Source: Xanthobacter autotrophicus
GTDB lineage: Bacteria; Pseudomonadota; Alphaproteobacteria; Rhizobiales; Xanthobacteraceae
Direction of reading: 5' to 3'
NCBI RefSeq assembly: GCF_005871085.1
Contig: NZ_VAUP01000031.1
Span: 248,001-312,000 of the forward strand
Length of the DNA: 64,000 bases
Shown: in pieces, positions 17,146-34,753 of the stretch
How positions within the stretch are numbered: position 1 is the stretch's first letter
Layout: every line of letters begins with the position of its first letter
The notes under the pieces: model-generated
Database searches by the model: none
The model's input: only the letters and a program-made list of their open reading frames with translations
Told to the model about the DNA's origin: nothing
Program-made: the position numbers and the translations under genes

Positions 17146-17147
17146 GG

Positions 17148-19500: not shown

Positions 19501-19516
19501 GTTAGATCGTTCGGTC
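19501..19516. promoter_or_regulatory. Predicted TetR operator 1 (livK side)
   Basis: The minus strand reads GACCGAACGATCTAAC, matching the block-wide pattern GACCGA-N4-TCGGTC in 9 of 12 defined positions. It is placed to control the livKHMGF operon. Confidence 0.55.
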
Positions 19517-19682
19517 TTTTTAATTCAGATCAAATCCCATTTCCACCAGAATCTGCGTTGCCCGTACGCAACGTCATTGGAGCGGACGTGCAAGGTTGAT
19601 CAACGCAATAATCCATTGCGACCTGAGGGCCTGCCGAACATGGTCGGCGAGAAAATTTGCGTCCACGCGGCGTGGACGGCGC

Positions 19683-19711
19683 TTGACAGGTTCCAAGGAC
19701 GAAGGAATATT
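19683..19711 (+). promoter_or_regulatory. Sigma-70-like promoter of the Rieske operon
   Basis: A perfect TTGACA at 19683-19688, then 17 bp, then AATATT at 19706-19711. Transcription would start near 19718, inside the operator at 19714-19729, so a bound repressor would block it. Confidence 0.6.
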
Positions 19712-19713
19712 TA

Positions 19714-19729
19714 GACCAATCGTTCGATT
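19714..19729. promoter_or_regulatory. Predicted TetR operator 2 (Rieske promoter)
   Basis: GACCAATCGTTCGATT contains the perfect inverted repeat AATCG-TT-CGATT and fits GACCGA-N4-TCGGTC. It lies directly downstream of the predicted -10, the classic place for a repressor. Confidence 0.6.
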
Positions 19730-19770
19730 AATTTTCCAACAATCCAACACAACCTCAGGGGTGGACCGCC

Positions 19771-21057
19771 ATGCCGCAAGCCGCCGTGTCCGAAGCCGCA
19801 GCCTCCGCCGGGGCGCGCGACTACCGCGCGCTCATCGAGCCCGCGCGCATCAACAGCCGGCTCTATTACGATCCGGCCATCTTCCAGGAAGAGCTGGAGA
19901 AGATCTGGTACAAGACCTGGGTATACGTGGGTCACACCAGCGAGATCCCCAACAAGAACGACTATGTCACCAAGTCGATCGGCCCCATGCCGGTGCTGAT
20001 GGTGCGTGACAAGGAAGGTGAGGTCCGCCTCCTGCTCAACAAGTGCCCCCATCGCGGCAACCAGCTGTGCGCCTACCAGAAGGGCAACCGCACCAGCTTC
20101 ACCTGCCCGTACCACTCCTGGACCTTCTCCAACACCGGCGACCTCATGGGCTATGCCCTGCCGGACGGCTACGAGGGCCAGAGCAAGGCCGGCCTCAACC
20201 TCGGCAAGGTGCCGCGCATCGCCATCTATCGTGGCTTCGTGTTCGGCTCGATGGCGGCGGAGGGCATCTCCCTGGAGGAGCATCTCGGTGGCGCCAAGGC
20301 GGCGCTCGACCAGTTGCTCGACAACTCGCCCACCGGCGAGCTGGAGCTGACCGCGGGCTTTCTCCAGCACCGCACCAAGGCCAACTGGAAGTTCATGTTG
20401 GAGAACGAGACCGACGGCTATCACCCCGGCTTCGTCCACGGCTCGGTCTTCCAGGTGACAAGCTCGGGCATCGGCAGCCTCTACGGCTCGGACTCCACCG
20501 CCCTGACCCGCGACTATGGCAACGGCCATACCGAGTTCGACCTGCGCCCCGAATGGCGCAAGAACGACAAGCCGCTGCAGTGGTTCGGCACCACGCCGGA
20601 GCGCCTGCCCGAGTACGTGAAGGCCATGAACGCGGGCTATGGCGAGGAGCGCGCCCGCCAGATCATGATCGACGGCTCGCCGCACGTCATGATCTTCCCG
20701 AACCTGTTCATCGCCGAGATCCAGATCTTCGTGCTGCAGCCGGTGGCGGTGGACGAAACCGTCCAGCACGTCACCGCCGTGCAGTTCAAGGGCGCGCCCG
20801 ACATCAACCGGCGCCTGCGCCAGCAGACCATGGGGTCGGTGGGCCCCGCCGGCCTGCTGCTCGCCGACGACACCGAGATGTACGAGCGCAACCATCGCGG
20901 CGCGCAGATCCTTGATCCCGAATGGCTGGTGCTCTCGCGCGGCCTGCACCGTGAGCGGCTCGACGACAATGGTTTCCGCATCGCCCATTCCACCGACGAG
21001 ACGCCGCAGCGCGGCATCTGGCGCCACTACCTCAACCTGATGACCGAGGCCCGCTGA
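19771..21057 (+). CDS. Rieske non-haem iron ring-hydroxylating oxygenase, alpha subunit
   Basis: 428 residues. The Rieske [2Fe-2S] ligands are C92, H94, C112 and H115 (CPHRGNQLC, then CPYHSW). The catalytic domain has the bridging Asp215 and iron ligands H218 and H223 (DGYHPGFVH), with the third ligand probably D366 or D367 in LLADDTEM. It should insert O2 into an aromatic ring, giving a cis-dihydrodiol or phenol. It is the benzoate/anthranilate/cumate-like alpha3beta3 type, since a beta subunit follows at once (1-nt overlap). The CoA-centred neighbourhood suggests a CoA thioester or side-chain acid substrate, as with IpfAB on ibuprofen-CoA (inference). Confidence 0.92.
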   Translation: MPQAAVSEAAASAGARDYRALIEPARINSRLYYDPAIFQEELEKIWYKTWVYVGHTSEIPNKNDYVTKSIGPMPVLMVRDKEGEVRLLLNKCPHRGNQLCAYQKGNRTSFTCPYHSWTFSNTGDLMGYALPDGYEGQSKAGLNLGKVPRIAIYRGFVFGSMAAEGISLEEHLGGAKAALDQLLDNSPTGELELTAGFLQHRTKANWKFMLENETDGYHPGFVHGSVFQVTSSGIGSLYGSDSTALTRDYGNGHTEFDLRPEWRKNDKPLQWFGTTPERLPEYVKAMNAGYGEERARQIMIDGSPHVMIFPNLFIAEIQIFVLQPVAVDETVQHVTAVQFKGAPDINRRLRQQTMGSVGPAGLLLADDTEMYERNHRGAQILDPEWLVLSRGLHRERLDDNGFRIAHSTDETPQRGIWRHYLNLMTEAR

Positions 21058-21590
21058 TGACCGCGCTCGCCCAATCCTTCGCGGACGTATCCGCTCCCGA
21101 TCTTGCGGCAACCGATGCCGTGGCGCTCCACCACCAGGTGGCGCAGTTCCTCTATCTGGAGGCCCGCCTCGCCGACACCCACGACTATGACGGGTGGGAG
21201 GCGCTGTGGACGGACGACGCCATCTACTGGGTCCCCGCCAATGGCGACGACACCGACCCAGAGAAGGAGATGTCGGTACTTTACGATAACCGCTCGCGCA
21301 TCGGCGTGCGCATCCGCCAGCTCAAGACCGGGCGCCGCCACACCCAGACCCCGCGTTCGGAGCTGGCCCGCGTCATCTCCAATATCGAGATCGCCGAAGT
21401 CCGCGGCAACGAGGTGGAGGTGCGTGCCAACGTCCTCATCTACGAGGACAATCTGCGCGGCGATACTTTGTGGGCGGCGCGCAACACCTATCGCCTGCGC
21501 ATGGTGGACGGCGGCTTCCGGCTGGTGCGCAAGAAGATCGCGCTCGTGAACAACAACAAGCCCATCTTCACCCTCTCCTTCCTGGTCTGA
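21057..21590 (+). CDS. Ring-hydroxylating oxygenase, beta subunit
   Basis: 177 residues, the usual length of the small non-catalytic cone-fold subunit. Family blocks are QFLYLEARLADTHDYDGWEALW, DDAIYWVPAN, EMSVLYDNRSRIGVRI and NTYRLRMVDGGFRLVRKKI. Its ATG overlaps the alpha TGA (TGATG), so expression is coupled and stoichiometric. It stabilises the alpha3beta3 hexamer. Confidence 0.93.
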   Translation: MTALAQSFADVSAPDLAATDAVALHHQVAQFLYLEARLADTHDYDGWEALWTDDAIYWVPANGDDTDPEKEMSVLYDNRSRIGVRIRQLKTGRRHTQTPRSELARVISNIEIAEVRGNEVEVRANVLIYEDNLRGDTLWAARNTYRLRMVDGGFRLVRKKIALVNNNKPIFTLSFLV

Positions 21591-21598
21591 GACCTTCC

Positions 21599-22498
21599 AT
21601 GACACACAGCACTTCCGAGGCCTCTGCCCAAGCGCCTGCGGCCTCTTCCCAAGCGCCTGCGGCCTCTTCCCAAGCGCCCGCGGCCAATAATGCGCCTGCA
21701 CCCGAGAGCTGGATCGGCGAAGGGCCGGTCCTGCTCGACTATGCGGAGGGCGTCGCCACCCTCACGCTGAACCGTCCCGGCTCGGCCAACGGCATGAACA
21801 TCGAACTCATGCAGGCGCTGTACCGTGCGATCATGGTGGTGCACCGCGCGCCGGACGTGCGGGTGCTGCACCTGCGCGGCGCCGGCGCCAATTTCTGCGC
21901 CGGCGGCGACGTGCGCGAGTTCGCCTCCAAGGGCGAGGCGCTCGGCGATTTCCTGCGCGAGGTGACGGCCTATCTGCAGGTCGCCATCGGCGCACTCATC
22001 CGCCTGAAAGCCGTCGTCGTCACCGAGGTCCACGGCTATGCCGCGGGCGGCGGCGGGCTCGGCCTCGTCTGCGCCTCCGACGTCGTGATCGCCGGCGCCG
22101 GCGCGAAGTTCCTCGCCGGCGCCACGCGCGTAGGCATGGCGCCGGACGCGGGCTCCTCGGTGATCCTGCCGCATCTCGTCGGCTTCCGCCGGGCGGCGGA
22201 GATCATGCTCTCCAACCGCATTGTGGATGCGGCGGAGGCGCAGGCCATCGGCCTCATCACCAGATGCGTGCCCGACGACGCCCTTCAGGCCGAGGCGAAG
22301 AAGGCCGCGCGCCTCTATGCCTCCGGCGCGCCGCTGGCGCTCGCGGCCACCAAGCGTCTCCTGTGGAACGCGCTGGACGTGGAGCGGGCGTTGCCGGAGG
22401 AGGCGCGCACCGTCTCCGAACTCTCCTTCACCGCCGATTCCCGCGAGGGCCTCGCCGCGGTGATCGGGAAGCGCAAGCCCGTCTTCACCGGCCGATGA
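21599..22498 (+). CDS. Crotonase-superfamily protein, PaaG-like, with unusual active site
   Basis: 299 residues. A low-complexity Ala/Gln/Ser/Pro tail (about residues 1-40, encoded by a 21-bp tandem repeat) precedes the crotonase fold. The oxyanion-hole segment is GANFCAGGDVREF, with the second at GYAAGGGGLGLVCASD. The two hydratase glutamates seem absent (CELA-type Glu is Leu in GGGLGLV; the QPE Glu is not seen in FLAGATRVGMAPDAGS). The Asp of GMAPDAG matches the catalytic Asp of PaaG-type isomerases (LVPDSGG). An isomerase or ring-modifying role on an aromatic-derived CoA ester is more likely than simple hydration. The next gene overlaps its stop by 4 nt. Confidence 0.82.
   Translation: MTHSTSEASAQAPAASSQAPAASSQAPAANNAPAPESWIGEGPVLLDYAEGVATLTLNRPGSANGMNIELMQALYRAIMVVHRAPDVRVLHLRGAGANFCAGGDVREFASKGEALGDFLREVTAYLQVAIGALIRLKAVVVTEVHGYAAGGGGLGLVCASDVVIAGAGAKFLAGATRVGMAPDAGSSVILPHLVGFRRAAEIMLSNRIVDAAEAQAIGLITRCVPDDALQAEAKKAARLYASGAPLALAATKRLLWNALDVERALPEEARTVSELSFTADSREGLAAVIGKRKPVFTGR
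21629..21691 (+). repeat. 21-bp tandem repeat in the crotonase N-terminal tail
   Basis: CAAGCGCCTGCGGCCTCTTC plus C occurs at 21629-21649 and 21650-21670, with a diverged third copy at 21671-21691, encoding repeats of QAPAASS. Copy number variation by slippage would change the tail length in frame. Confidence 0.75.
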
Positions 22499-23232
22499 GC
22501 ACGGCGTCTCCCGGGCGCCGCGCGCTCGTCACCGGAGGTGGCGCCGGCATCGGCGCCGCCATCGTCAAACGGTTGGGCGCGGACGGCCTCAACGTGGTCT
22601 TCTGCGACCGCGACGCCGAAACCGGCACGGCGCTCGCGGCCGCGAGCGGCGCCGCCTTCGTGCACATGGACGGCACGGATGCGGCGGCGGCCGAGGCGCT
22701 GTTTTCCGCCCACGGCCCGTTCGACGTGCTGGTGAACAATATCGGCGCTGACCAGCACGCCTTCTTCACGCAGACCACGGCGGAAGACTGGCGCTTCCTG
22801 CTGTCGGTGAACCTTGAGACCGCCTTTCTCTTCACCCGCCTCGCGCTGCCGGCCATGCAGGCGGCGCGCTACGGCCGGCTGGTGAACGTCGCCTCCGAGG
22901 CGGGGCGGCTCGGCTCGAAGGGTGGCGCCGTCTATGCCGCCGCGAAAGCGGGGCTGATCGGCTTTACCCGTTCCATCGCCCGCGAGAATGCCCGCTACGG
23001 CATCATCGCCAACGCCGTGGCGCCGGGTCCCATCCGCACCCCCATGGTGGAGCGCGCGGTGGCCGAGGTGGGCGAGACGATCCTCGCCGATATGGCCGCC
23101 CTCACCCTTCTGCGCCGCATCGGCGAGCCGGAGGAAGTGGCGGCGGCGGTGGCCTTCCTCGCCTCCGAGGGCGCCTCCTTCGTCACCGGCGAGGTGCTGG
23201 GCGTCTCCGGCGGCATGGGCTGCGGCGCCTGA
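22495..23232 (+). CDS. Short-chain dehydrogenase/reductase
   Basis: 245 residues. The cofactor motif is TGGGAGIG (residues 14-21), followed by CDRD at the end of strand 2, suggesting NAD(H) preference. NNIGA is in the usual NNAG place. Catalytic residues appear as Ser (NVASEAGRLGS), then YAAAK. The C-terminal ITGEVLGVSGG-like motif (here VTGEVLGVSGG) is present. In this operon it could oxidise a cis-dihydrodiol made by the Rieske enzyme or a 3-hydroxyacyl-CoA. Sequence alone does not decide. ATGA overlap with the crotonase gene. Confidence 0.85.
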   Translation: MSTASPGRRALVTGGGAGIGAAIVKRLGADGLNVVFCDRDAETGTALAAASGAAFVHMDGTDAAAAEALFSAHGPFDVLVNNIGADQHAFFTQTTAEDWRFLLSVNLETAFLFTRLALPAMQAARYGRLVNVASEAGRLGSKGGAVYAAAKAGLIGFTRSIARENARYGIIANAVAPGPIRTPMVERAVAEVGETILADMAALTLLRRIGEPEEVAAAVAFLASEGASFVTGEVLGVSGGMGCGA

Positions 23233-23273
23233 GCCTGCCCTCAAGCAAGAACCAATATCCACGGGGAGCCCCG

Positions 23274-23594
23274 ATGACCCGGATTACCTTCGTCACGCCC
23301 GCCGGCCAGCGCATCGAGATCGATGCGGAGAACGGGCTCAGCGTCATGGAATGCGCCCGCCGCGCCAACGTGCCGGGCATCGTCGCCGAATGCGGCGGCG
23401 CCTGTTCGTGCGCCACCTGCCACGTGCATGTGGACCCCGAGTGGTGCGCCGCGGCGGGCGAGGCCGCCGGCATGGAGCGCGACATGCTGGAATTCGCCGA
23501 GGACGTGCGCGACAGCTCCCGCCTCTCCTGCCAGGTGAAGGTGGCGCCCGCGCTGGACGGCCTCGTCGTCCACCTGCCCGCCGGCCAGGGCTGA
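23274..23594 (+). CDS. [2Fe-2S] ferredoxin, adrenodoxin/putidaredoxin type
   Basis: 106 residues. Cluster ligands C40, C46, C49 and C87 (CGGACSCATCHVH, then LSCQV) give the C-x5-C-x2-C...C pattern of vertebrate-type ferredoxins. It probably carries electrons from the FAD reductase encoded at 28165-29385 to the Rieske oxygenase, making a three-component system. A GGGGAG ribosome site precedes the ATG. It is cotranscribed with the SDR and racemase genes. Confidence 0.92.
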   Translation: MTRITFVTPAGQRIEIDAENGLSVMECARRANVPGIVAECGGACSCATCHVHVDPEWCAAAGEAAGMERDMLEFAEDVRDSSRLSCQVKVAPALDGLVVHLPAGQG

Positions 23595-23599
23595 GGCCG

Positions 23600-24721
23600 A
23601 TGCCGGGACCGCTTTCGGGATTGCGCATCGTCGAGATGGTCGGCCTCGGGCCGGCCCCGTTCGCCGCCATGATGCTGGCAGATGCGGGCGCCGAGGTGAT
23701 CCGCGTCCACCAGAGGGGCCAGCGGCCGGAAATCCCGCTCATGAACACGCGTTTCGACGTGTTGGCGCGGGGCCGCAGGTCCATCGCCCTCGACCTCAAG
23801 GCGGAGAGGGATCTTGAGGTGATGCGCGATCTCCTCGCCCGCGCGGACGGCCTCATCGAGGGCTTCCGGCCGGGGGTGATGGAGCGCCTCGGCCTCGGGC
23901 CGGAGCCCTGCCTCGCCGCCAATCCGCGCCTCGTCTACGGCCGCATGACCGGCTGGGGGCAGGAGGGGCCGCTGAAGGACGCCGCCGGGCACGACCTCAA
24001 CTATCTCGGCGCCACCGGCGCGCTGGCCGCCATGGGCCCGGCGGATGCGCCGCCGCCCGTGCCGCTGAACCTCATCGCCGATTTCGGCGGCGGCGGCATG
24101 CTGATGGCGTTCGGCATGGTGGCGGCGCTGCTGGGGGCGAAGACCACCGGCGAAGGCCAGGTGGTGGATGCCGCCATGACGGATGGCGCGGCGCTGCTCG
24201 CCGCCATGTTCTGGGGCTTCCGCGCCGGGGGGCTGTGGGGCGCTGCGCGGCAGGCGAACCTGCTGGACGGCGGAGCCTATTTCTACGGCACCTATGCGTG
24301 CGCTGATGGAAAATTCCTCGCTGTGGCGCCGGTGGAGGGCAAGTTCCACCGCATCCTCATCGACACCCTCGGGCTGGACCCCGCCGAATTCACCCACGCG
24401 GCCGAACCCGCCGCCTGGGGCCGGCTGCGCGCCCGGCTCGCCGCCCTCTTCCTGACCGAGCCGCGCGACCACTGGGCCCGGTTGTTCGCCGGCACCGACG
24501 CCTGCGTCTCCCCCATCCTCGACTGGGACGAGGCCGCCGCCGATCCGCACGCGCGGACCCGTGGCGCCTTCGTGAGCGTGGACGGCGTGGTGCAGCCGGC
24601 GCCCGCGCCGCGCTTCTCCGCCACCCCCTCCGCCATCGCCTCCGGGCCAGCGGCACCGGGTGCGCACGGTCGCGAGATCCTCGCCGGCTGGGGCCTCGAT
24701 CCGGCTCGGCTCGATCCCTGA
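23600..24721 (+). CDS. Alpha-methylacyl-CoA racemase-like family III CoA-transferase fold protein
   Basis: 373 residues of the CaiB/BaiF fold. It matches the racemase branch: H131 (AGHDLNY), D161 (LIADFGGGG) and E246 (APVEGKFH) correspond to the catalytic His126, Asp156 and Glu241 of mycobacterial MCR with a constant offset of 5. The family epimerises the 2-methyl centre of acyl-CoAs. In this operon it would fit a chiral 2-substituted arylacyl-CoA, such as a 2-arylpropionyl-CoA. A CoA-transferase function is less likely but cannot be excluded. It is last in the plus-strand operon, starting 5 nt after the ferredoxin stop. Confidence 0.85.
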   Translation: MPGPLSGLRIVEMVGLGPAPFAAMMLADAGAEVIRVHQRGQRPEIPLMNTRFDVLARGRRSIALDLKAERDLEVMRDLLARADGLIEGFRPGVMERLGLGPEPCLAANPRLVYGRMTGWGQEGPLKDAAGHDLNYLGATGALAAMGPADAPPPVPLNLIADFGGGGMLMAFGMVAALLGAKTTGEGQVVDAAMTDGAALLAAMFWGFRAGGLWGAARQANLLDGGAYFYGTYACADGKFLAVAPVEGKFHRILIDTLGLDPAEFTHAAEPAAWGRLRARLAALFLTEPRDHWARLFAGTDACVSPILDWDEAAADPHARTRGAFVSVDGVVQPAPAPRFSATPSAIASGPAAPGAHGREILAGWGLDPARLDP

Positions 24722-24855: not shown

Positions 24856-25767
24856 TCAGAGGGCGCGCAGGAAGGCGCCGATGCGGGCGAGGGAGAGGGC
24901 CGCCTCGGGCAGTTCCTCGAACACCTGGAAATGGTGGCACATGCCTTCGAACACCTCGACCTCCACCCGCCCGCCCTGCGCCGCCGCATTGCGGGCGAGG
25001 AGATGGCTATCGTCGAGGGTGATGTCGGCGCCGCCCGCATGGACCAGGATGGGTGGCAGGCCGGAGAGATCGCCCAGCACCGGCGAGGCCGTGGGGTCGG
25101 CGGGCGCATGGTCGCGGCCGAGATAGGTGCGGGCCATGGCCTTCAACTGCTCCGGGCGGGAGAAGATGTCCTGCTCCACCAGCGCGCTGTAACTCTCCCC
25201 GCTCATGGTCAGGTCGAGCCAGGGCGAGAGCAGCACCAGCGCCTTCGGCAGCGGCAGGCCGGCATCGCGCGCCCTGATCGCGGTGCCGAGGGCAAGCGCC
25301 CCACCGGCGGAATCCCCCACGAGCGCAAGCGGGATGTCGCCCGCCTCCACCAGCACCCGGTAGACGGCGAAGGCGTCGTCCGGCGCCGCGGGAAAGCGGT
25401 GCTCGGGGGCGAGCCGATAGTCGAAGCCTAGCACCCGCATGCCGCTCGCCGCGGCAAGGCGCGCCATCAGCCCGGCATGGGAGCGCACGGAGCCGATCTG
25501 GAAGCCGCCGCCGTGGCAATAGAGCAGCGTGCGGCCCGCCTCTGCCTCCGCCGCATCGAAGGCGCAGGCGGGAAGGCCGGCGAGCGCGTGCGGCGAGCGC
25601 GTGACCTGCGGGGCGCCTTCGCCCGCCCCGAGGAAGTCCTCGAAGCTGGCGCGGATCTCGGCGAGGCTCATGCCCGCCGCCCAGGCGGAGGTCGCGGCCT
25701 TGATGCGTGCGCGCACCCGCTCGAAAGCGACGGCGCTGTCGGCGGGGCTGGGAAGGGGTTGGGTCAT
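24856..25767 (-). CDS. Alpha/beta hydrolase of the hormone-sensitive-lipase (HSL) family
   Basis: 303 residues. HSL marks are the HGGG oxyanion motif (YCHGGGFQIGS), the nucleophile elbow GDSAGG, an Asp in VLVHAGGADITLDDS and the final His in MCHHFQ. It would hydrolyse a carboxylic ester or possibly a thioester. It lies 68 nt downstream of the CoA ligase on the same strand and is likely cotranscribed. It could free the acid from an ester before CoA activation, or act as a thioesterase (inference). Confidence 0.87.
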   Translation of the reverse strand: MTQPLPSPADSAVAFERVRARIKAATSAWAAGMSLAEIRASFEDFLGAGEGAPQVTRSPHALAGLPACAFDAAEAEAGRTLLYCHGGGFQIGSVRSHAGLMARLAAASGMRVLGFDYRLAPEHRFPAAPDDAFAVYRVLVEAGDIPLALVGDSAGGALALGTAIRARDAGLPLPKALVLLSPWLDLTMSGESYSALVEQDIFSRPEQLKAMARTYLGRDHAPADPTASPVLGDLSGLPPILVHAGGADITLDDSHLLARNAAAQGGRVEVEVFEGMCHHFQVFEELPEAALSLARIGAFLRAL

Positions 25768-25835
25768 GACGGCATCCGGCGCGCGGGGCCGGCGGACGCA
25801 TCCGCCCGCCGCTCCCCGCCAGGAAAAGACAAGCC

Positions 25836-27161
25836 TCAGTGCGCAGCTTCCGACCGGTGCAGCACGCGCGTGGCCTTGGCTTCGTAGCGCGGCAGCGCGC
25901 CCTCCGCATGGCACTCCACGTTCACGTTGATGCCAAGGCGGGCCTTGATTTCTCGGCGCACGTCGGCGGCGCACACCTCGCCGGGGCGCTGCTCGGCGCT
26001 GACGGATTCCACCGCCACAGTCATCTTGCCGATGGTGGTGGCCTCCTTGTCCACGTAGATCTGCCAGGCCTCCTTGGCGAGGCCGGGGATGCCGGCGATC
26101 ACGTCCTCGATCTGCGATGGGAAGACGATGACGCCCTTGAACTTGATCATGTCGTCGGTGCGCCCGATGATCCGGCCGATCTTGCGCATGCCGCGACGGC
26201 CCGAGGGGCAGTCGTAGGGGCGTGGGGAAAGGCGCACCAGGTCGCGGGTGCGCCAGCGCACCACAGGCGAGGCCTCCTTGCGCAGGGTGGTGACGACGAT
26301 CTCGCCCACTTCGCCGTCCGACACCGGCTTCATGGTCTTGGGATCGAGGATCTCGACGATGACGGTGTCCTCGTTGAGGAGCTGCAATTCGTCGTCGGCG
26401 TGGGTGTAGGGCGTGGAGATGGCGAGGATCGGCCCGCCCGCTTCCGTGGTGCCGTAGATGTTGTGGCTCATGAAGCCCTGGGGCAGTTCCGCCTCCAGCT
26501 GGGCGCGGAACTCGGCGGAGACCGACTGCCCGCCGAGGATGGCCACCTTCAGCGTCCACTCCGTGCGCGGATCGATGCCCTGGTGCTTGGCCGCCTGGAC
26601 CAGCGTCATCAGCCACAACGGCGACATGGAGGCCACGTCATAGGCATGGTCGCGCAGCCAGCGGGCGGCAAGCTCGCCGCGGCCGGGGCCGATGGGAAAG
26701 TTGGTGCAGCCCACGGCGGAGAAGCCGGCGTCCAGCGCCGGGCCGCCGATCCACAAGCCATAGCCGTAGCCTTGATAGGCCCGGAAGCCGCTGCGCACGC
26801 CCGCGGCCGTCAGCAGGCGCGCCATCTGGTAGGGCAGGAGGCCGTGCAGGTCGTTCTTCGTCATGCCGAACGTCACCGGCAGGCCGGTGGTGCCGGAGGT
26901 GGCGACGAAGCGCTCCACCTTCTCCATGGGCACGGTGAGGAAGGGAAAGGGATAGCGGTCGCGCAGCAGCGACTTGTCCATGAAGGGGGCGTTGGCGAGG
27001 CCGTCCTCGGAGGCGAGATCCTCCGGCTTCATGCCGGCTTCGGCAAAATGCGCCTTCCAGGCATCGCACTGCGCGAGGCGCGCGCCGAGGCCGGCAAGGC
27101 CCTCGCGCTGGACTTTCAGAATACCGTCGCGGTCGAGCGACTCCACCTCAGGATGCTGCAT
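25836..27161 (-). CDS. PaaK-family (phenylacetate-type) aryl/acyl-CoA ligase
   Basis: 441 residues, the size of phenylacetate-CoA ligases. AMP-forming motifs are ATSGTTGLPVTFG (phosphate loop), NIYGTTEAGGP and GRTDDMIKFKGVIVFPSQIE (hinge region). It would activate a carboxylate with ATP and CoA. GGAGGAAG just upstream supports the ATG at 27161. It is divergent from tetR, with two predicted TetR operators and a perfect FNR/FixK-type box between them. It is probably the entry enzyme of the pathway. Substrate identity cannot be read from the sequence; it need not be phenylacetate. Confidence 0.9.
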   Translation of the reverse strand: MQHPEVESLDRDGILKVQREGLAGLGARLAQCDAWKAHFAEAGMKPEDLASEDGLANAPFMDKSLLRDRYPFPFLTVPMEKVERFVATSGTTGLPVTFGMTKNDLHGLLPYQMARLLTAAGVRSGFRAYQGYGYGLWIGGPALDAGFSAVGCTNFPIGPGRGELAARWLRDHAYDVASMSPLWLMTLVQAAKHQGIDPRTEWTLKVAILGGQSVSAEFRAQLEAELPQGFMSHNIYGTTEAGGPILAISTPYTHADDELQLLNEDTVIVEILDPKTMKPVSDGEVGEIVVTTLRKEASPVVRWRTRDLVRLSPRPYDCPSGRRGMRKIGRIIGRTDDMIKFKGVIVFPSQIEDVIAGIPGLAKEAWQIYVDKEATTIGKMTVAVESVSAEQRPGEVCAADVRREIKARLGINVNVECHAEGALPRYEAKATRVLHRSEAAH

Positions 27162-27230: not shown

Positions 27231-27246
27231 GATCGAACGGATGGTC
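27231..27246. promoter_or_regulatory. Predicted TetR operator 3 (ligase side)
   Basis: The minus strand reads GACCATCCGTTCGATC, fitting GACCGA-N4-TCGGTC. It lies 70 bp upstream of the ligase start and would control the ligase-hydrolase operon. Confidence 0.55.
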
Positions 27247-27375: not shown

Positions 27376-27404
27376 TTGGCACCGGGGGCCTTCGCGCTTA
27401 TAGA
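27376..27404 (+). promoter_or_regulatory. Promoter of the tetR gene
   Basis: TTGGCA (27376-27381), 17-bp spacer, TATAGA (27399-27404). The -10 overlaps operator 4 (27403-27418), consistent with autorepression. Confidence 0.6.
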
Positions 27405-27418
27405 CCGAATGATCGGAA
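27403..27418. promoter_or_regulatory. Predicted TetR operator 4 (autoregulation)
   Basis: GACCGAATGATCGGAA has the inverted CCGA/TCGG half-sites and fits the block-wide pattern well. It overlaps the tetR -10 region. Confidence 0.6.
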
Positions 27419-27439: not shown

Positions 27440-28129
27440 GTGGCGAGAACGCGCTCAGCCGAGTACGACAATATTCACGATACCATACTCGAGCGGGCGG
27501 CATCCGTCTTCGCGCAGCGCGGCTATGCGGCCACCTCCATCGGCGACATCGCCGAGGCCTGCGAGTGCTCCAAGTCGCGCCTGTATCACTATTTCACGTC
27601 CAAGGAGGCCATCCTTTCCGACATGCTCACGTCGCATGTGGAAAGCCTCCTCATGAAGTGCCGGCAGACCCTCTACGGCTACCAGGACCCGGAGGAGCGA
27701 TTCCGCCAGCTGACGCGCCTGTTCCTCGACGTCTATTCGGTCTCGCGCGACCAGCACGTGGCGTTGCTCACCTGCTCGGAGTTCCTGGTGCCTGAGACCC
27801 GCAAGGTGCTGGTGGCCAAGCAGCGCGAGCTGATCGCCTATGTGCGGGACATCTTGCTGCAGCTGCGGCCGGACCTCGCCAAGGACTCCACCATGGCCCA
27901 CGTGGACACCATGCTGTTCTTCGGCATGATCAACTGGACCTATACGTGGTACCACGCCGACGGCGCGGTGACGCCCAGCGAACTCGCCGACCGCACCGTG
28001 GACCTGTTCGTGAACGGCTACGCCCACGCGGCCGCACCATCCAATGGCACCCAGCCCCACGCGAAACAGGATGCGCGCCACCCTGCGCGGCAGGATGGCC
28101 GGGCCGATCCCCGCTCCGGCAAGGACTGA
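27440..28129 (+). CDS. TetR-family regulator, probable repressor of the aromatic-CoA block
   Basis: 229 residues. An N-terminal helix-turn-helix (about 10-60; RAASVFAQRGYAATSIGDIA, then CSKSRLYHYFTSKEAIL) is followed by an all-helical ligand domain. The start is GTG at 27440; the nearby ATG at 27432 is out of frame. The last about 30 residues are polar and low-complexity. It is divergent from the CoA ligase and central to the block. Six copies of one 16-bp motif at the block's promoters suggest it controls all of it, probably induced by a CoA ester intermediate as with PaaR-type TetR proteins (inference). Confidence 0.88.
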   Translation: MARTRSAEYDNIHDTILERAASVFAQRGYAATSIGDIAEACECSKSRLYHYFTSKEAILSDMLTSHVESLLMKCRQTLYGYQDPEERFRQLTRLFLDVYSVSRDQHVALLTCSEFLVPETRKVLVAKQRELIAYVRDILLQLRPDLAKDSTMAHVDTMLFFGMINWTYTWYHADGAVTPSELADRTVDLFVNGYAHAAAPSNGTQPHAKQDARHPARQDGRADPRSGKD

Positions 28130-28164: not shown

Positions 28165-29385
28165 TCAGGCGGCCGGCCGCCGCATCCGTGCCACAGGGTC
28201 GAACCCCTCCTGCGCCGCCTCTTCGAGTGAGACGGCGATGCCGCCTTCCAGCAGCTTCTTGGCCGCCATGTAGGTGCGCGCATCGTTGAGGGCGTCCACC
28301 GCGATCATCCGGCCCTCGCGGAAGTACCAGAGCGATTCGCCGCGCTCCGTGCGCCGGCGGAGCACCGCGTCATAGCCGCGGTTGAGACCGACGATCTGGA
28401 GCTTCATGTCGTACTGGTCGGACCAGAACCACGGCACCGGCTCATAGGCGCGCGGGCGGCCGAGCATGTCGTCGGCCGCGCATTCCGCCTGGTCCACCGC
28501 ATTCTGCACGCTCTCCAGCCGCGTCGGGATGCCCGCCAAGGGAAAGGCCGCGCAATCGCCGGCCGCCCAAATGCCCGGCGCCGAGGTGCGGCCGTGGACA
28601 TCCACTGCGATGCCGTTGTCGCAGGCGATGCCCGCGGCGCGGGCCAGCTCGTCGCGGGGCAGCACGCCGATGCCGACGAGGACCGCATCCACCTCCATGC
28701 GCGTGCCGTCGTCCAGCGTCACCGCCGCGACCGCGCCGTCCCGCGCTGTCACGGCGACCACGCTGCGCCCTTCCAGAATACGCACGCCGTGGCCCGCGTG
28801 CAGGGCGCGGATGGCGTCCGATGTCTCGGCGCAGGCCACCCGCTCCAGGATGCGCGCGGCGCGCTCCACCACGGTCACGGAAAGGCCGGCCTTCACCGCC
28901 ACCGCCGCTGTCTCCAGCCCCACATAGCCGCCGCCCAGCACCATGAGGTGTCGGCCCGGACGAATGGCGTCCTGAAGGCGTTCTGCATCGGCGAGGCCGC
29001 GCAGTTCGTACACGCCCTTGAGCCCGGAAAATTCCGGCGGCAGGGTGCGCGGGCGGGTGCCCGTCGCCAGCGCCAGCTTGCTCCATGGCACCGTGCGGTC
29101 GTTCACCTCCAGCGTGCGCCCTGCCGGATCGAGGGCGGTGACGCGCGCGTCCGTCACCAGCGCGACACCGAGGTCGCTCCAGAAGTCGGCCGGGCGCAGA
29201 TAAAGCCGATCAACCGTCCATTCTCTTTTAAGATAGGCCTTGGAGAGCGGCGGACGCTGGTAGGGAGGGTGCGGCTCATCGCCATAGAGCGTCAAGGCGC
29301 CGGAATATCCGCTATGTCGCAGGCGCATGGCTAGGGATGCCGCAGCCTGTCCGGCACCGACGATGGCGATGTGTTCCTGCTCCAT
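28165..29385 (-). CDS. FAD-dependent ferredoxin reductase
   Basis: 406 residues, putidaredoxin-reductase type. The FAD motif is IAIVGAGQAAASLA (residues 6-19), the NAD(P) motif is MVLGGGYVGLETAA (around 150), and the second FAD motif is GIWAAGDCA (around 270). A C-terminal reductase domain contains PWFWSDQYDMKLQIVG. It would pass electrons from NADH to the ferredoxin encoded at 23274-23594. It converges on tetR and diverges from the HMGCS-like gene across a predicted TetR operator. Confidence 0.92.
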   Translation of the reverse strand: MEQEHIAIVGAGQAAASLAMRLRHSGYSGALTLYGDEPHPPYQRPPLSKAYLKREWTVDRLYLRPADFWSDLGVALVTDARVTALDPAGRTLEVNDRTVPWSKLALATGTRPRTLPPEFSGLKGVYELRGLADAERLQDAIRPGRHLMVLGGGYVGLETAAVAVKAGLSVTVVERAARILERVACAETSDAIRALHAGHGVRILEGRSVVAVTARDGAVAAVTLDDGTRMEVDAVLVGIGVLPRDELARAAGIACDNGIAVDVHGRTSAPGIWAAGDCAAFPLAGIPTRLESVQNAVDQAECAADDMLGRPRAYEPVPWFWSDQYDMKLQIVGLNRGYDAVLRRRTERGESLWYFREGRMIAVDALNDARTYMAAKKLLEGGIAVSLEEAAQEGFDPVARMRRPAA

Positions 29386-29407: not shown

Positions 29408-29434
29408 TTGACCGAACGTTCTGGTTATTATAAT
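29408..29434 (+). promoter_or_regulatory. Promoter with embedded TetR operator 5 (29410-29425)
   Basis: GACCGAACGTTCTGGT, a near-palindrome around ACGT, lies between a TTGACC (29408-29413) and a perfect TATAAT (29429-29434; spacing 15, slightly short). It is shared by the ferredoxin reductase (-) and the HMGCS-like gene (+). Transcription from TATAAT would leave a leader of about 115 nt before the GTG at 29556. Confidence 0.55.
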
Positions 29435-29555
29435 GCCAAATCGCGGGTGGCAACCGGGTTTCCTGCGCATCGTCGGCCCCGACGGCGGCGCGTGCGGACC
29501 GAGCGCCTCCTCCCGGCCGGGCGCCGCAATCACAGATCAGGGCGAGGAACCCAAG

Positions 29556-31001
29556 GTGACGGGCATCACAGCGATCGCAATCCACCTGCCGCGCCTGCGC
29601 CTCCAGCGCGCGAGCATGGCTGCCGCCATGGACTGGCTCTGTGCCCGCTCCGACACGCGCGGGGCCCGCACCCTCGCCTTCTGGGACGAGGACCCGGTGA
29701 GCATGGGCGTCGCCGCCGCGCGGGCCTGCCTCGATCAGGCTCCGGAGGCGCGCACGGCCGTCCGCGCCCTCACCTTCGCCACCACCACGCCGGTATTCGC
29801 CGAGCCGCAGCAGGCGAGCTTCCTGTGTGCCGCGCTCCGCCTCCCGGAGGCGATCCGCACCCAGGATGTCGGCGGCACCATGAGGTGCGGCCTCCTCGCC
29901 CTTCACGCCGCGCTGGAGGGTTCGGATCCGGCTCTCCTGATCGCTTCCGACATGCCATCCAATACCCCGGGAGGACTTGCCGAACTACGCTATTCGGACG
30001 GGGGTGCCGGGGTTCTCGTCGGCGCCGGGCCGAACCTGCTCGCCTATCGCGGCGGCGCCAGCCTGTCCGCGCCCTTCATCGAGCGCTACCGCGGCGCCGG
30101 CCACGCCCTCACCACCGATTGGGAAGAGCGCTGGGTGCGCGAGGAGGGTTTCCTCGATCTGGTGCCGCGCGCCATCTCGGAAGCCCTCGATAGGGCGCAA
30201 CTTTCGCCGGAGGACATCCAGAGTTTCGTCCTGCCCTGCGTCATTCCCGGCGCCGCAAAAGCGGTGGCGCAAGCCGCCGGCCTGAGCCAGGCAAAGCTGG
30301 CCCAACCCCTTGATCTGGAATGCGGAGATACCGGCGCCGCCCACGCGCTGGTGATGCTGGCGCGGGCCATGGAAGACATGCGCCCCGGCGAGCGGCTGGT
30401 AGTGGCCCAGTTCGGCCAGGGCGCGACTGCCCTTGTGCTGGAGGCGACCGCCGCCATTGCCGGCTTCGCACCCGCCGCGTCCGCCATGATCGACACCGGC
30501 ATCGCCGAGACCAACTATCTGAAACTCCCCGTCTTTCGCGGCCTTCTGCCGTGGGAGCGGGGCCTGCGCGGCCGCCTTCCCGTGAGCGAGGCGCTGACCA
30601 CCGCCTATCGCAATTCCCAAGCACTCCTCGGCTTCGTCGGCAGCCGCAGCCCCGAGACCGGTCAGGTGCAGTTCCCCCCCTCCCGCCTCGCCGTGGCGGA
30701 GGCCGGCTTCTTCGCGGAGCCGCAGGAGCCGTGGCCGCTGGCCGACCTCGGCGGCACGGTCGCCACCGCCACGGCGGACCGGCTCGCCTTCTCGCGCAGC
30801 CCACCCAATTGCTACGGGCTCATAGACATTCCCGGCGGCGCCCGCCTGATGATGGACTTCACCGACCCCGACGCGGCGCGCCTCGGCCCCGGTGACGCCG
30901 TGCGTTTCGTGTTCCGCATCAAGGATATGGACGAGCGCACCGGCTACCGCCGCTATTTCTGGAAGGCGGTCGCGGCGTCCGCGCTGCCGGCCGCAGCCTG
31001 A
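29556..31001 (+). CDS. HMG-CoA-synthase/KAS III-like protein fused to an OB-fold (DUF35) domain
   Basis: 481 residues. The N-terminal 350 or so residues are thiolase-fold HMGCS-like, with candidate nucleophile C111 (VGGTMRCGLLAL) at the position of the HMGCS catalytic Cys. The C-terminal about 110 residues (GLIDIPGGARLMMDFTD, LGPGDAVRFVFRIKD) form an OB-fold DUF35 domain. The zinc-ribbon cysteines usual before that domain are absent (QFPPSRLA). The GTG at 29556 is chosen; an upstream ATG at 29433 overlaps the -10 box. The thiolase gene starts 17 nt downstream. DUF35 proteins dock thiolases in BbsAB, IpfDE and the archaeal thiolase/HMGCS complex, so a complex with that thiolase is likely. Confidence 0.8.
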   Translation: MTGITAIAIHLPRLRLQRASMAAAMDWLCARSDTRGARTLAFWDEDPVSMGVAAARACLDQAPEARTAVRALTFATTTPVFAEPQQASFLCAALRLPEAIRTQDVGGTMRCGLLALHAALEGSDPALLIASDMPSNTPGGLAELRYSDGGAGVLVGAGPNLLAYRGGASLSAPFIERYRGAGHALTTDWEERWVREEGFLDLVPRAISEALDRAQLSPEDIQSFVLPCVIPGAAKAVAQAAGLSQAKLAQPLDLECGDTGAAHALVMLARAMEDMRPGERLVVAQFGQGATALVLEATAAIAGFAPAASAMIDTGIAETNYLKLPVFRGLLPWERGLRGRLPVSEALTTAYRNSQALLGFVGSRSPETGQVQFPPSRLAVAEAGFFAEPQEPWPLADLGGTVATATADRLAFSRSPPNCYGLIDIPGGARLMMDFTDPDAARLGPGDAVRFVFRIKDMDERTGYRRYFWKAVAASALPAAA

Positions 31002-31018
31002 TCGAAAGGCGACGCACG

Positions 31019-32212
31019 ATGGCCAAGGGAATCAAGGACAGGGTCGCCATTCTCGCCATGGGTTGTTCGCGCTTCGGCGAGCGCTGGGACGTGGGCCAGG
31101 AAGAGCTGATGGCCGAGGCCTATCTGGAGGCCTTGGGCCATGCCGGCATCAGGCCGGACCAGATCGAGGCGGCCTGGTATTCCTCCCACTATGACGACAT
31201 CGGCGCCGGCAAGGCGGGCACGCCCATGGCCCAGGCCCTGCGCCTGCCGGCCATCGGCGTCACCCGCGTGGAGAACTTCTGCGCCGGCGGCACGGAGGCA
31301 TTCCGCGGCGCGGTCTATGCGGTGGCGTCCGGGGCGGTGGACATCGCCCTCGCCGTGGGCGTGGAGAAGCTGAAGGACACCGGCTTTGCCGGCCTGCCGC
31401 CGGCCTCGCGAGGGACGCTCGCGCCCATGTACCTGCCCACCCACACCAATCCGGGCAACTTCTCCCAGCTCGCCCGGGCCTATGGGGCGCGCCACAACAT
31501 CTCCTCCGGCGACCTGAAGCGGGCCATGGGGCACACCTCCATGAAGAGCCACGCCAATGCGGTGACGAACAAGAACGCCCACCTGCGCAAGGCCATCACC
31601 ATCGAGCAGGCGGTGAACGCCCCCATGGTGGCGGACCCGCTCGGCCTGTTCGACTGCTGCCCGGTGTCGGACGGTGCGGCTTGCGCCATCGTCACCACGC
31701 CGGAGATCGCGAGGAGCCTCGGCAAGACGCCGGTGCTGGTGAAGGCCATCCAGCTTGTGGCATCCAACGGCTGGGAAGTGCAGCAGAGCGGCTGGAACGG
31801 CTCCTATGTCCATACCGCCCGCATCGCCGCGCGGCGGGCCTACGCGGAGGCGGGTATTGCCGACCCGCGCACCGCGCTGAGCTTCGCCGAGCTGCACGAT
31901 TGCTTCTCCATCACCGAGCTGGTGACGCTGGAGGATATCGGCCTTGCCGATGAGGGCACCGCCTGGAAGCGGATGCTGGACGGCGCGTTCGATGTGGACG
32001 GCGTCATGCCCTGCCAGGTGGATGGTGGCCTGAAATGCTTCGGCCATCCTGTGGGAGCCTCGGGGCTGCGCATGCTCTACGAATGCTGGCTGCAACTGAC
32101 CGGCCAGGCGGGCGAGCGCCAACTGGCGAGCCCCAGCCTTGCCCTCACGCACAATCTCGGCGGCGCGCCGGCCCAGAACGTTTGCTCCATCACCATTGTC
32201 GGTGCCGCCTGA
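31019..32212 (+). CDS. SCPx/BbsB-type thiolase
   Basis: 397 residues of the non-decarboxylating thiolase family that works with DUF35 partners. Nucleophile C88 (ENFCAGGTEAFRGAV), H293 (ELHDCFS) and the GHPVGASG motif near 342 are all present, so it looks active. It would cleave a 3-oxoacyl-CoA or, as in ibuprofen catabolism by IpfD, release an acyl-CoA from a dihydroxylated ring side chain. It is the second gene after the HMGCS/DUF35 fusion and ends at a strong terminator. Confidence 0.88.
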   Translation: MAKGIKDRVAILAMGCSRFGERWDVGQEELMAEAYLEALGHAGIRPDQIEAAWYSSHYDDIGAGKAGTPMAQALRLPAIGVTRVENFCAGGTEAFRGAVYAVASGAVDIALAVGVEKLKDTGFAGLPPASRGTLAPMYLPTHTNPGNFSQLARAYGARHNISSGDLKRAMGHTSMKSHANAVTNKNAHLRKAITIEQAVNAPMVADPLGLFDCCPVSDGAACAIVTTPEIARSLGKTPVLVKAIQLVASNGWEVQQSGWNGSYVHTARIAARRAYAEAGIADPRTALSFAELHDCFSITELVTLEDIGLADEGTAWKRMLDGAFDVDGVMPCQVDGGLKCFGHPVGASGLRMLYECWLQLTGQAGERQLASPSLALTHNLGGAPAQNVCSITIVGAA

Positions 32213-32236
32213 CCCGACCGTGGCGGCCCGCTAACT

Positions 32237-32275
32237 CCCCCGCCGCCCGGCTTGCGCCGGCGGCGGGGTTTTTCT
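32237..32275 (+). terminator. Rho-independent terminator after the thiolase
   Basis: A GC-rich stem (CCCGCCG-C-CCGGC against GCCGGCGGCGGG, one bulge) with TTGC loop at 32252-32255 is followed by GTTTTTCTT. It ends the plus-strand operon and separates it from the converging FadB-like gene. Confidence 0.85.
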
Positions 32276-32289
32276 TGTCCTGAAGGGCC

Positions 32290-34368
32290 TTACGCCTTCC
32301 GCCAGTCGGCGAAGCTGCGTCCGTCGCGGGCGAGGGCCAGCAAGAGCGGCGCGGGCTCGGATCCGGCGCCGCCGGCGGCGTGGGCGGCTTCCACTTCGGT
32401 GACGACCGCGCGCAGGCCCATCTGGTCGGCGGCCCACATCGGCCCGCCTCTGGTGCGCGGGAAGCCGTAGCCATGGACGAAGGCGAGATCGATGTCGGAG
32501 GCCCGCAGCGCGATGCCCTCCGCCAGCGCCTTGGCGCCCTCGTTGGCCATGACGGCGAGCAGCCGGCGCTGGATCTGCTCGGGTGTGAAGGAGCGCGGGA
32601 CAATGGCCTTCTCCGCGCGGCTTTCGGCGATCAGCGCCTCCACCACGGGATCGGCGGATTTGTCGCCCACCGCGTCATAGGCATACCAGCCGGCGCCGGT
32701 CTTGCGGCCGAGGCGGCCCTGTTCCACCAGCCGGTCGGCGATGGCGACATAGCGCTCGGCCGGATCGCGGGCGGCCGCCCGGCGCTTGCGCATGGCATAG
32801 GCGATGTCGAGGCCGGACATGTCGGACACGGCGAAGATGCCCATGGCGAAGCCGTAGGCCTCCAGCGCCGCATCCACCTCCTGCGGGCTGGCGCCGTCCT
32901 CCACCAGAACCTCGGCATGGCGGCGGTAGAGCGCATAGATGCGATTGCCGATGAAGCCGTCGCAATTGCCGGCCACCACCGGCTGCTTGCCCATCTTCTT
33001 CGCCAGCGCCAGCGCCGTGGCGATCACATCGGGCGCGGCGAGAGCCGGGCGCACCACCTCCAGCAGCTTCATCACGTTGGCCGGGGCGAAGAAGTGCAGG
33101 CCCACCACGTCCTGCGGGCGGGAGGTGACGGCGGCGATGGTGTCGAGGTCGAGATAGGAGGTGTTGGTGGCCAGCACCGCGCCGGGCTTTGCCACCGCAT
33201 CGAGACGGCGGAAGATGTCGGCCTTGACGGCGAGGTCCTCGAAGGCGGCCTCCACCACCAGGTCGGCGGCGGCAAGAGACGCCCAGTCGGCGGTGGGGGT
33301 GACGCGGGCGCGGCGCTCGACGCCTTGCGCATCGGTGAGGCGACCGCTCTTCACCTGCCGGGCATAAAGGTCGGCCACCCGCTGCAAGCCGGCGGCGGCG
33401 GCCACCCCATCCCGCTCCACCAGGGTGACGGAAAACCCCGCGTCTGCCAGCGCCACGGCGATGCCGGCGCCCATGGTGCCGGCGCCGATCACCGCTACCG
33501 CCTCCAGCGGACGGGGCGCGACGCTCTCCAGCCCCGGCACCTTGCCTGCCTCGCGCTCGGCGAAGAAGAGATGGCGCAGCGCCTTTGCCTCGGCGCTCTC
33601 GCGCAGGGCGAGGAAGGCGGCGCGTTCAAGGGCGAGGCCGGTCGCAAACTCAGCCTCCCCCACCGCGCGGATGACGCGGATGGCCTCGTCGATGGCCGGG
33701 ACGCCCTTCGCCCCCTTGCGGGCGCGGGCAATGGCCGCCTCCGCCCCGTCGTCGCCGGCGGGAACCGGCAGTTCCGAGAGCCGGCGCTTCGTGACGCCCG
33801 GTGCGCGGGCGATGGCTTCGGCGAGGAGGTCACCCTCCACCACTTCGTCGAGCAGGCCAAGGGCAAGGGCATCGCCCGCCTTCAGCACCCGCCCCTCACA
33901 GATGAGGGCGATGGCCTGGGCCACGCCGACGAGGCGCGGCAGGCGCTGGGTGCCGCCGGCGCCGGGGATGAGGCCGAGCCGGGTCTCGGTGAGCCCCATC
34001 AGCGCCTTCGGCCCGCCGAGCCTGAGGTCGCAGGCGAGCGCGATCTCGCAGCCGCCACCCAGCGCCGCCCCGGCGATGGCCGCCACCACCGGCTTTGCGC
34101 AGGCGTCGATGGCCGCCACCACATCCGGCAGGAAGGGCGCATCCGGCGGCTGGCTCATCTCGCGGATGTCGGCGCCGGCGATGAAGCGGCCCGGCCCGCC
34201 GCTGATCACCAGCGCCGCCACATCGGGATCGGCCTCCAGCGCGCGCACGGCATCCAGCAGCCCTTGCCGCACCGCCTTCGACAAGGCATTCACCGGCGCA
34301 AACTCAATGGCGATCACGCCGACCTTGCCTTGCCGCGCGACGGTGACCGGAGGTGTCACGGCATCCAC
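32290..34368 (-). CDS. Bifunctional enoyl-CoA hydratase / 3-hydroxyacyl-CoA dehydrogenase
   Basis: 692 residues, FadB/FadJ-like. The crotonase domain (1-190) keeps both hydratase glutamates ([24 protein letters not shown]). The NAD domain opens with [12 protein letters not shown] (around 295), and [16 protein letters not shown] and [10 protein letters not shown] mark the dehydrogenase. Two C-terminal dehydrogenase domains follow. It would carry out two consecutive beta-oxidation steps. It starts 3 nt after the stop of the internally deleted thiolase, so it was probably part of a thiolase-containing operon under operator 6. It may still serve the main pathway or general beta-oxidation. Confidence 0.92.
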
Positions 34369-34371
34369 GGC

Positions 34372-34599
34372 TCAGACCCTCTCGATGAGGGCGGCGATGC
34401 CCTGGCCGACGCCGATGCACATGGTCGCCACCGCCCGCTTACCCCCGCGCACCTCCAGCGCGCTCACCGCCGTCATCGCAAGCCGCGCCCCCGACATCCC
34501 AAGAGGATGGCCAAGCGCAATGGCGCGTACTTCTTTCAGGGCATCGGCATAGCGTCCGATGGGGGGGCGCGCGAAGTCCCGGATTAAGGCGTCAGCCAT
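34372..34599 (-). pseudogene. Internally deleted acetyl-CoA acyltransferase (beta-ketoadipyl-CoA thiolase type)
   Basis: A 75-codon frame joins a thiolase N-terminus ([20 protein letters not shown], like the RTPIGRYGG start of PcaF/PaaJ-type enzymes) directly to the thiolase C-terminus ([30 protein letters not shown]). About 320 middle residues, including the nucleophile Cys, are missing, yet the reading frame is kept. It cannot be catalytic. It may simply survive as the leader of the FadB-like operon. Confidence 0.85.
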
Positions 34600-34710
34600 G
34601 GTCGTCTCCCAGATGAATGAGGGCTCAGGCAGCGGCGCTGGACACCGCGGCATGCCCCGGAACCGCTCGTCTATTGAGTTGTCCCTGGGGGCTGAGGTGC
34701 GGGTGCGGCA

Positions 34711-34753
34711 TTGACAATACGGCCTATTCAAATAAAAGATCAACCGATCGTAT
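34711..34753 (+). promoter_or_regulatory. Promoter with predicted TetR operator 6 (34738-34753)
   Basis: TTGACA at 34711-34716 and TAAAAG at 34733-34738 (16-bp spacing) could read into the paaG remnant. GATCAACCGATCGTAT at 34738-34753 is the weakest of the six motif matches. It lies between the two decayed genes, which suggests that both once belonged to the same regulon. Confidence 0.45.

Follow-up and report, generated by a model that had tools for sequence, protein, structure and literature searches.

A predicted TetR-family regulon with six operators in a catabolic gene block of Xanthobacter autotrophicus

The stretch of Xanthobacter autotrophicus DNA considered here (64 kb, 69% G+C; hereafter the window) contains a block of catabolic genes, a gene for a TetR-family regulator and six palindromic sites, which are proposed to be the operators of that regulator. 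These sites had been brought together as one TetR regulon in an earlier note on the same DNA. The regulator and the sites are listed below, the score of each operator being derived from a matrix that includes the site itself.

27440..28129, plus strand: TetR-family regulator, proposed owner of the operators (domains TetR_N and TetR_C_24)
19501..19516, no strand: operator 1 (29.7 bits), in the spacer of the candidate minus-strand promoter TTAAAA-N17-GATAAT of the ABC-transporter operon
19714..19729, no strand: operator 2 (33.8 bits), 2 bp behind TTGACA-N17-AATATT of the Rieske dioxygenase operon
27231..27246, no strand: operator 3 (30.2 bits), in the spacer of the candidate minus-strand promoter TTTACA-N18-TATTAA of the PaaK-like ligase operon
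27403..27418, no strand: operator 4 (25.2 bits), overlapping the candidate -10 element TATAGA (27399-27404) of tetR
29410..29425, no strand: operator 5 (31.2 bits), between the ferredoxin reductase gene (minus strand) and the HMG-CoA-synthase-like gene (plus strand)
34738..34753, no strand: operator 6 (28.3 bits), between fadJ (minus strand) and a decayed paaG (plus strand)

The genes among which they lie are the following.

14719..19437, minus strand: branched-chain-type ABC (ATP-binding cassette) transporter operon (substrate-binding protein 18256-19437, two permeases, two ATPases)
19771..21590, plus strand: Rieske ring-hydroxylating dioxygenase (alpha subunit 19771-21057, beta subunit 21057-21590)
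21725..24721, plus strand: enoyl-CoA hydratase, short-chain dehydrogenase/reductase (SDR), ferredoxin and CoA-transferase, with starts estimated from domain matches (SDR domain from about 22522; 2Fe-2S ferredoxin 23274-23594; class III CoA-transferase domain from about 23612)
24856..27161, minus strand: alpha/beta hydrolase (to about 25800, estimated) and PaaK-like aryl-CoA ligase (25836-27161)
28165..29385, minus strand: ferredoxin reductase, HcaD-like
29556..32212, plus strand: HMG-CoA-synthase-like (HMGS-like)/OB-fold protein and thiolase-like protein (31019-32212)
32290..34368, minus strand: FadJ-like bifunctional protein

The HMGS-like gene more likely begins with the GTG at 29556 than with the ATG at 29433.

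Direct inspection of the window found all six sequences at the start positions that the earlier note had given, and the gene annotation places each of them between divergent genes, as it had claimed; sites 1 and 2 lie between the gene for the substrate-binding protein (minus strand) and the Rieske dioxygenase (plus strand), and sites 3 and 4 between the PaaK-like ligase (minus strand) and TetR (plus strand). Aligned with each other, they form one full palindrome of 16 bp, GACCGAACGTTCGGTC, with A/T-rich arms. Both promoter elements that had been pointed out are there, TTGACA-N17-AATATT ahead of site 2 and TATAGA across site 4, and one TetR gene turned up in the selected open reading frames scanned (14.7 to 41 kb). 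The protein it encodes carries the two domains by which the TetR family is recognized, the TetR_N helix-turn-helix (PF00440, 5.6e-16) and a TetR C-domain (PF17932, TetR_C_24, 2.3e-22). Its best-matching solved sequence, PDB 3ccy (E 5e-93, residues 1-196), is a putative TetR-family regulator whose molecule name states no function.

In its original form, the 16-bp pattern GACCGA-N4-TCGGTC shows little if any signal: at up to three mismatches it occurs 46 times in the window, where 49.1 +/- 6.7 matches are expected, and with up to two mismatches it occurs 413 times in the whole genome as against 331 times in a reversed control. We rejected it as a search tool on account of these counts and worked with matrices of aligned sites. 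When each site in turn was left out of the matrix, it ranked first among the window positions outside the five training sites (6/6). A matrix made from 26 unique sites of nine distant loci returned the six window sites as ranks 1-6 (31.4-23.5 bits), the seventh window position scoring 7.6 bits, a gap of 16 bits. The six-site matrix, applied to the nine loci, found 29 sites scoring 20 bits or more, none of them in a mapped gene; when the core columns were permuted, 200 such matrices averaged 0.55 sites in these loci and never exceeded 25. The final matrix comprises 75 unique sites, the six window sites included. None of 300 column-permuted versions of it placed six window positions at 23 bits or more (the largest count being 1), and in 200 block-shuffled windows its best score had a mean of 8.7 and a highest value of 25.7, as against 25.2 for the weakest real site.

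A sequence model, R1, was trained on 50 of the 75 unique sites, among them all six from the window, and scores only 150 candidates per genome (here 150 of 462). In the 5.01-Mb genome it gave 11 matches at E<=10, which fall at seven places: the six sites and one in the phenylacetate (paa) cluster, which lies on a different contig; there the place is between paaG and paaN. The E-values of these matches are weak (0.046 to 2.5), which is to be expected for a model only 24 bp long. The seven places are a lower bound, since the filtered search missed at least two places of 24-26 bits; L121:3885 (24.1 bits) and C38:221830 (25.7 bits) were scored by the matrix and went unreported by R1 (L, C and G numbers are our labels for loci, contigs and genomes). 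A degenerate 24-bp pattern with up to one mismatch occurs at five places genome-wide (one in the reversed control), with up to two at 22, including the six claimed sites, and with up to three at 123 (72 in the reversed control). The 16 further places at up to two mismatches score 25.7, 20.7 and 19.1 bits, the remaining ones 17.7 or less; the 19.1-bit place is the paa place on contig C11, which reaches 30.1 bits in its best register. The expectation of few hits outside the block is thus borne out as to few, but the number is not zero, as the paa-cluster place and related PaaR-type operators lie elsewhere in the genome.

The 25.7-bit place, about as strong as the weakest of the six sites, is a perfect palindrome, GACAGACCGGTCTGTC (L122:9831-9854; contig C38:221830), between a different TetR gene (TetR_C_13) and an OsmC gene. 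To judge from this setting it is probably another TetR operator of the same general shape. We rejected it as a site of the regulon because it adjoins another TetR gene and OsmC, its ownership being read from position only.

Orthologs of the regulator (52-98% identical) mark 24 loci in the genome collection (L031-L053, L057), drawn from an ortholog list that was limited to the best 80 of 129 and rests on exact peptide patterns. Within the helix-turn-helix region, the window TetR and the 24 orthologs agree in every residue of the segment SKSRLYHYF. In nine of these loci (L046-L053, L057) the gene order is different; they are the distant loci that supplied the 26-site matrix. Together with L002 and L003, the loci contain 91 sites of at least 20 bits and 95 of at least 17 bits, none of them inside a mapped gene (genes mapped by tblastn of the window proteins, with a 30-bp margin). 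Upstream counts, for which L002 and L003 were left out, were made for genes of at least 45% identity and near-complete 5' end, with 350 bp of DNA upstream, and for operators of at least 20 bits. Such an operator precedes the gene for the substrate-binding protein in 12 of 12 counted loci, the dioxygenase alpha gene in 19 of 19, the PaaK-like ligase in 23 of 23, the ferredoxin reductase in 14 of 15, the HMGS-like gene in 7 of 7 and fadJ in 3 of 3. The palindromic operator expected of a TetR-family protein at its own promoter as well as at target promoters is present as site 4 in the window, and an operator of at least 20 bits stands upstream of tetR in 22 of the 24 loci. Genes which are usually internal to operons lack one (enoyl-CoA hydratase 0/19, CaiB 0/8, thiolase 0/14), as does a distant ATPase gene (0/4). 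The alpha/beta hydrolase has an operator upstream in 3 of 19 loci (L050, L051 and L053), in which it is divergent from the ferredoxin reductase and leads its unit. From these counts we conclude that the operator tracks the first genes of operons, and it does so through rearrangements.

The operator also co-occurs with the regulator. Twenty-two genomes were picked from 397 for R1 searches: two with the ortholog, six with a weaker TetR match and 14 without a match at E<=1e-30. The two genomes with an ortholog (61% and 54% identity) gave, at E<=0.5, eight matches at four places and six matches at three places, all on the contig of the regulator. Among the 20 genomes without the ortholog, 18 gave no match at this threshold and two gave one each (E 0.43 and 0.46). 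Nor was an operator found in three plasmid-borne related dioxygenase clusters that lack a close TetR ortholog (three of 41 records; best score 17.0 bits). In one of them there is a TetR with 35% identity to the window protein; the other two have no match at E 1e-10, though Rhodococcus opacus has other annotated TetR genes. On plasmids of Variovorax sp. SRS16 and R. opacus PD630 (L124, L125), the core of dioxygenase, HMGS-like/OB-fold protein and thiolase is present without a close relative of the regulator and without the operator, so that the enzyme module extends more widely than the regulon. Phylogenetic footprinting and this co-occurrence uphold the earlier grouping of six operators under one TetR, but not its 16-bp operator length or the place it gave to a thiolase; its few outside hits, as said, are not zero.

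The thiolase question arises at site 6, which was held to cover a decayed thiolase and a decayed paaG of the same regulon. Two remnants flank the site:

34375..34526, minus strand: last 50 codons of pcaF, contiguous with fadJ in a stretch common to the paa operon
34871..35350, plus strand: decayed paaG, an enoyl-CoA hydratase fragment with an intact counterpart in L035

A 2.2-kb stretch with the pcaF tail in it (32301-34526 of the window) shares 96.6% identity with the genome's own paa operon (L121:15844-18066). The supposed thiolase remnant is explained most simply as having arrived together with fadJ, through gene conversion or duplication; as a pcaF tail inside the stretch that matches the paa operon it was rejected as a former gene of the regulon. 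The case of paaG is different: Azorhizobium doebereinerae (L035) has an intact paaG, 80% identical to that of the genome, beside an operator of the site-6 type (30.6 bits). Because an intact copy stands there beside the same type of operator, the decayed paaG was probably once a member of the regulon, and this part of the earlier claim survives. In two further Xanthobacter genomes the regulon and paa copies of fadJ (L133-L138) share 94.3% and 92.3% identity, and in A. doebereinerae 77%; the L031 genome has no FadJ match at E<=1e-150. These identities suggest repeated exchange of fadJ between the two catabolic clusters in Xanthobacter by gene conversion, a reading which is weakened in the 92.3% case, since the two genomes are just as alike over the whole regulon locus (92.2%).

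Site 6 may accordingly be asked whether it still serves a working gene of the regulon. It is possible, although we doubt it, that it is a mere remnant of a divergent fadJ/paaG promoter, paaG being dead and the near-upstream DNA of fadJ having been replaced; paaG is indeed broken, the sequence up to 34526 matches the paa operon, and the operator lies about 370 bp from fadJ as against about 114 bp (mapped start) in L035. Yet the operator keeps 28.3 bits, and fadJ is open over its whole length and is still the first gene on that side.

The closest known system is PaaR of Burkholderia cenocepacia, the TetR repressor that controls phenylacetate degradation. Like the window regulator, PaaR belongs to the TetR family, has several dispersed operators in core promoters and recognizes an inverted repeat with the half-site ACCGA, the published repeat being ACCGACCGGTCGGT (PMC2770484). 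The genome under study has its own PaaR-type cluster on contig C11, with a TetR 34-35% identical to that of the window. Like the block, this cluster includes an ABC transporter of the branched-chain type and a PaaK-like ligase, the ligase having 35.8% identity to its counterpart in the window. The substrate-binding protein of that transporter is 63.5% identical to the one in the block, and both a PaaR-type TetR and a PaaX-like regulator are present in the cluster (L121; C11:52000-71999). A third sister group occurs in L055, L056 and L058 (Rhodospirillaceae and a Myxococcota bin), where the TetR is 37-40% and the PaaK-like ligase 59-62% identical; a CoA-transferase and a transporter protein are present in two of the three, and sites resembling GACCGAACGGTCGGAC appear as near variants of their own.

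The window regulator differs from PaaR in standing within a Rieske-dioxygenase block and not beside the PaaABCDE epoxidase, no paaABCDE being found among the annotated genes of the block. In the tree, it falls in a clade of 27 rows (support 100/99), outside which lies the PaaR-type protein of its own genome, so that it is no member of the paa-linked TetR clade; the tree carries a warning of long branches next to the window-regulator clade. The operators differ as well. A PaaR-type matrix was made from 15 hand-picked sites (13 of 30 listed places, mostly paa-linked, and two from L121), and its best word, AATTAACCGACCGGTCGGTTAATT, contains the published repeat. The half-site is common to both types; position 7 is mostly C in the PaaR type and not A/T, and the flanking position is more often T than A. 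The PaaR-type core is ACCGGT with a flank that is mostly T, and the window-type core mostly AACGTT or ATCGAT with an A. With the tested site left out, the window-type matrix gives all six window sites 2.9 to 8.7 bits more than the PaaR-type matrix does, and three paa sites gain 2.5 to 5.3 bits with the latter; two biases enter these comparisons, as the window-type matrix still contains almost identical sites from close relatives and the window matrix was used to find the PaaR-type sites. None of the six thus has the PaaR core as its better description. On these sequence grounds, the regulator is a sister of PaaR with its own operator variant, which would work like PaaR without being PaaR.

Several observations weigh against so tidy an assignment of the six sites to one regulator. 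The genome encodes a PaaR-type paralog with a similar operator, and the paaG/paaN site reaches 30.1 bits in the window-type and 32.6 bits in the PaaR-type matrix. Because this site scores high with both, the two regulons may overlap, and cross-talk between them is possible. Site 6 is the least distinct from the PaaR type (27.7 versus 24.8). Among the orthologous loci, L046 and L051 have no 20-bit site before tetR (2/24), L038 has 19.0 bits before the ferredoxin reductase gene (1/15), sites L052:411 and L057:10886 adjoin no mapped gene of the block, and 18.0-bit sites lie behind the thiolase gene in L036 and L037.

An alternative drawn from the same facts, that the sites serve the PaaR-type paralog on C11 as operators, by itself or jointly with the window TetR, and that the block is part of a wider phenylacetyl-CoA regulon, strikes us as improbable. 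Its case is that the two operator types agree at most positions, that the paa place L121:12937 reaches its 30.1 bits with the window-type matrix and that fadJ sequence is common to the block and the paa operon; but the leave-out scores sort the six sites and the three paa sites into different types, and two genomes (G218 and G364), in which a regulator of the PaaR clade stands by a paa-type ligase and no window-type ortholog is present, gave no R1 match at E<=0.5.

As to the manner of regulation, the dioxygenase alpha gene has a TTGAC box ahead of its operator, at roughly the spacing of a promoter, in 17 of the 19 loci compared (not in L042 and L057), and the candidate promoters at sites 1 and 3 are moderate matches to the consensus. 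The positions of the operators relative to these candidate promoters suggest repression by occlusion, and site 4, at the candidate promoter of tetR itself, would provide for autoregulation. Though the six sites do form one palindromic family, the element is longer than the 16 bp first ascribed to it: it has a distinct centre, information extends from -6 to +8 in either half and conservation falls at -7, giving a footprint of about 30 bp.

A footprint of this size recalls QacR, whose site IR1 measures 28 bp and is bound by a pair of dimers (PMC9210681). Scored with the window-type matrix, the central 24 bp of IR1 reach 38.6 bits and surpass each of the 75 native sites, of which the highest has 36.9; QacR aligns with residues 11-65 of the window TetR, the helix-turn-helix region (E about 1e-5). 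The window protein differs in its TetR_C_24 domain and its position among catabolic operons, QacR being the regulator of a drug-efflux gene. By analogy, since IR1 scores high and takes up two dimers, it is a fair guess that the operators here may be bound in the same way. The secondary palindromes, offset by 4 bp, score 27.1 bits at most; the core resembles itself when shifted by 4 bp, and the A/T of the arms may belong to the promoters. Of five 14-bp versions of the core looked up in the open-access literature, the PaaR form appears in PMC2770484 and PMC9493321 and the QacR form in PMC9210681; no further paper with the QacR-form core word was found in that literature, nor, among the papers listed, any on the present cluster.

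Taken together, these features make it very probable that one TetR repressor switches the block, with its predicted catabolism of an aromatic acid, through the six operators. In the proposed mechanism, the TetR protein (27440-28129) would bind, without inducer, the six operators of about 30 bp, each with the core GACCGAACGTTCGGTC and A/T arms; bound at candidate -35 and -10 elements, its own promoter included, it would block RNA polymerase. The most likely inducer is an aryl-CoA thioester made by the PaaK-like ligase, as phenylacetyl-CoA is for PaaR, and release of the repressor by it would switch the operons on together. We infer an inducer of this class because CoA thioesters act on PaaR and MbdR (PMC4424350), which as TetR repressors control aryl-CoA pathways, and because a PaaK-type ligase adjoins the regulator. 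MbdR of Azoarcus sp. CIB resembles the system proposed here in being a TetR repressor with operators over promoter elements and 3-methylbenzoyl-CoA as inducer, and is unlike it in its operator, ATAC-N10-GTAT, and its anaerobic pathway (PMC4424350).

That TetR might instead be an activator or a mixed regulator is very unlikely: the place of the operator does vary, from the spacer (sites 1 and 3) and an overlap with the -10 element (site 4) to just downstream of it (site 2), but all such positions should hinder the polymerase, and the two studied relatives, PaaR and MbdR, are repressors. Finally, a chance set picked out by eye, for which the chance-level counts of the loose 16-bp pattern in the window might speak, can be dismissed, as a matrix trained on other genomes recovers the same six sites and the conserved placement across loci, the co-occurrence with the regulator and the column-permutation and shuffle controls all tell against it.

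The products of the block, as far as their annotation goes, would provide for uptake, CoA activation, attack by a Rieske dioxygenase with its ferredoxin and reductase, and lower steps resembling beta-oxidation. No ring-cleavage dioxygenase was found among the annotated genes of the block. Matches to proteins of solved structure include several dioxygenases, phenylacetate-CoA ligases and thiolases of several pathways, and the related plasmid dioxygenase clusters name no substrate in the three records examined of 41. As a speculation we would offer that a sister of PaaR with a changed core (AACGTT for ACCGGT) took over an undescribed aerobic CoA-dependent route, in which a three-component Rieske dioxygenase would act on an aryl-CoA, ring opening would need no ring-cleavage dioxygenase, and the products would pass to a FadJ in continuing sequence exchange with the phenylacetate pathway.

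The picture that emerges is of a bounded regulon, comprising one repressor, six operators and four divergent gene pairs, which comparison between genomes clearly supports as real, conserved and local, and which is of a known, ordinary kind of bacterial gene control. Its gene set predicts a catabolic route for an aromatic acid in Xanthobacter, Azorhizobium, Bradyrhizobium, Rhizobiaceae and Paracoccaceae, and its operator marks the genes of the regulon in other genomes across rearranged gene orders. With the window TetR and a PaaR-type regulator in one genome, X. autotrophicus presents a case of sister repressors which may separate their operators by a few positions.

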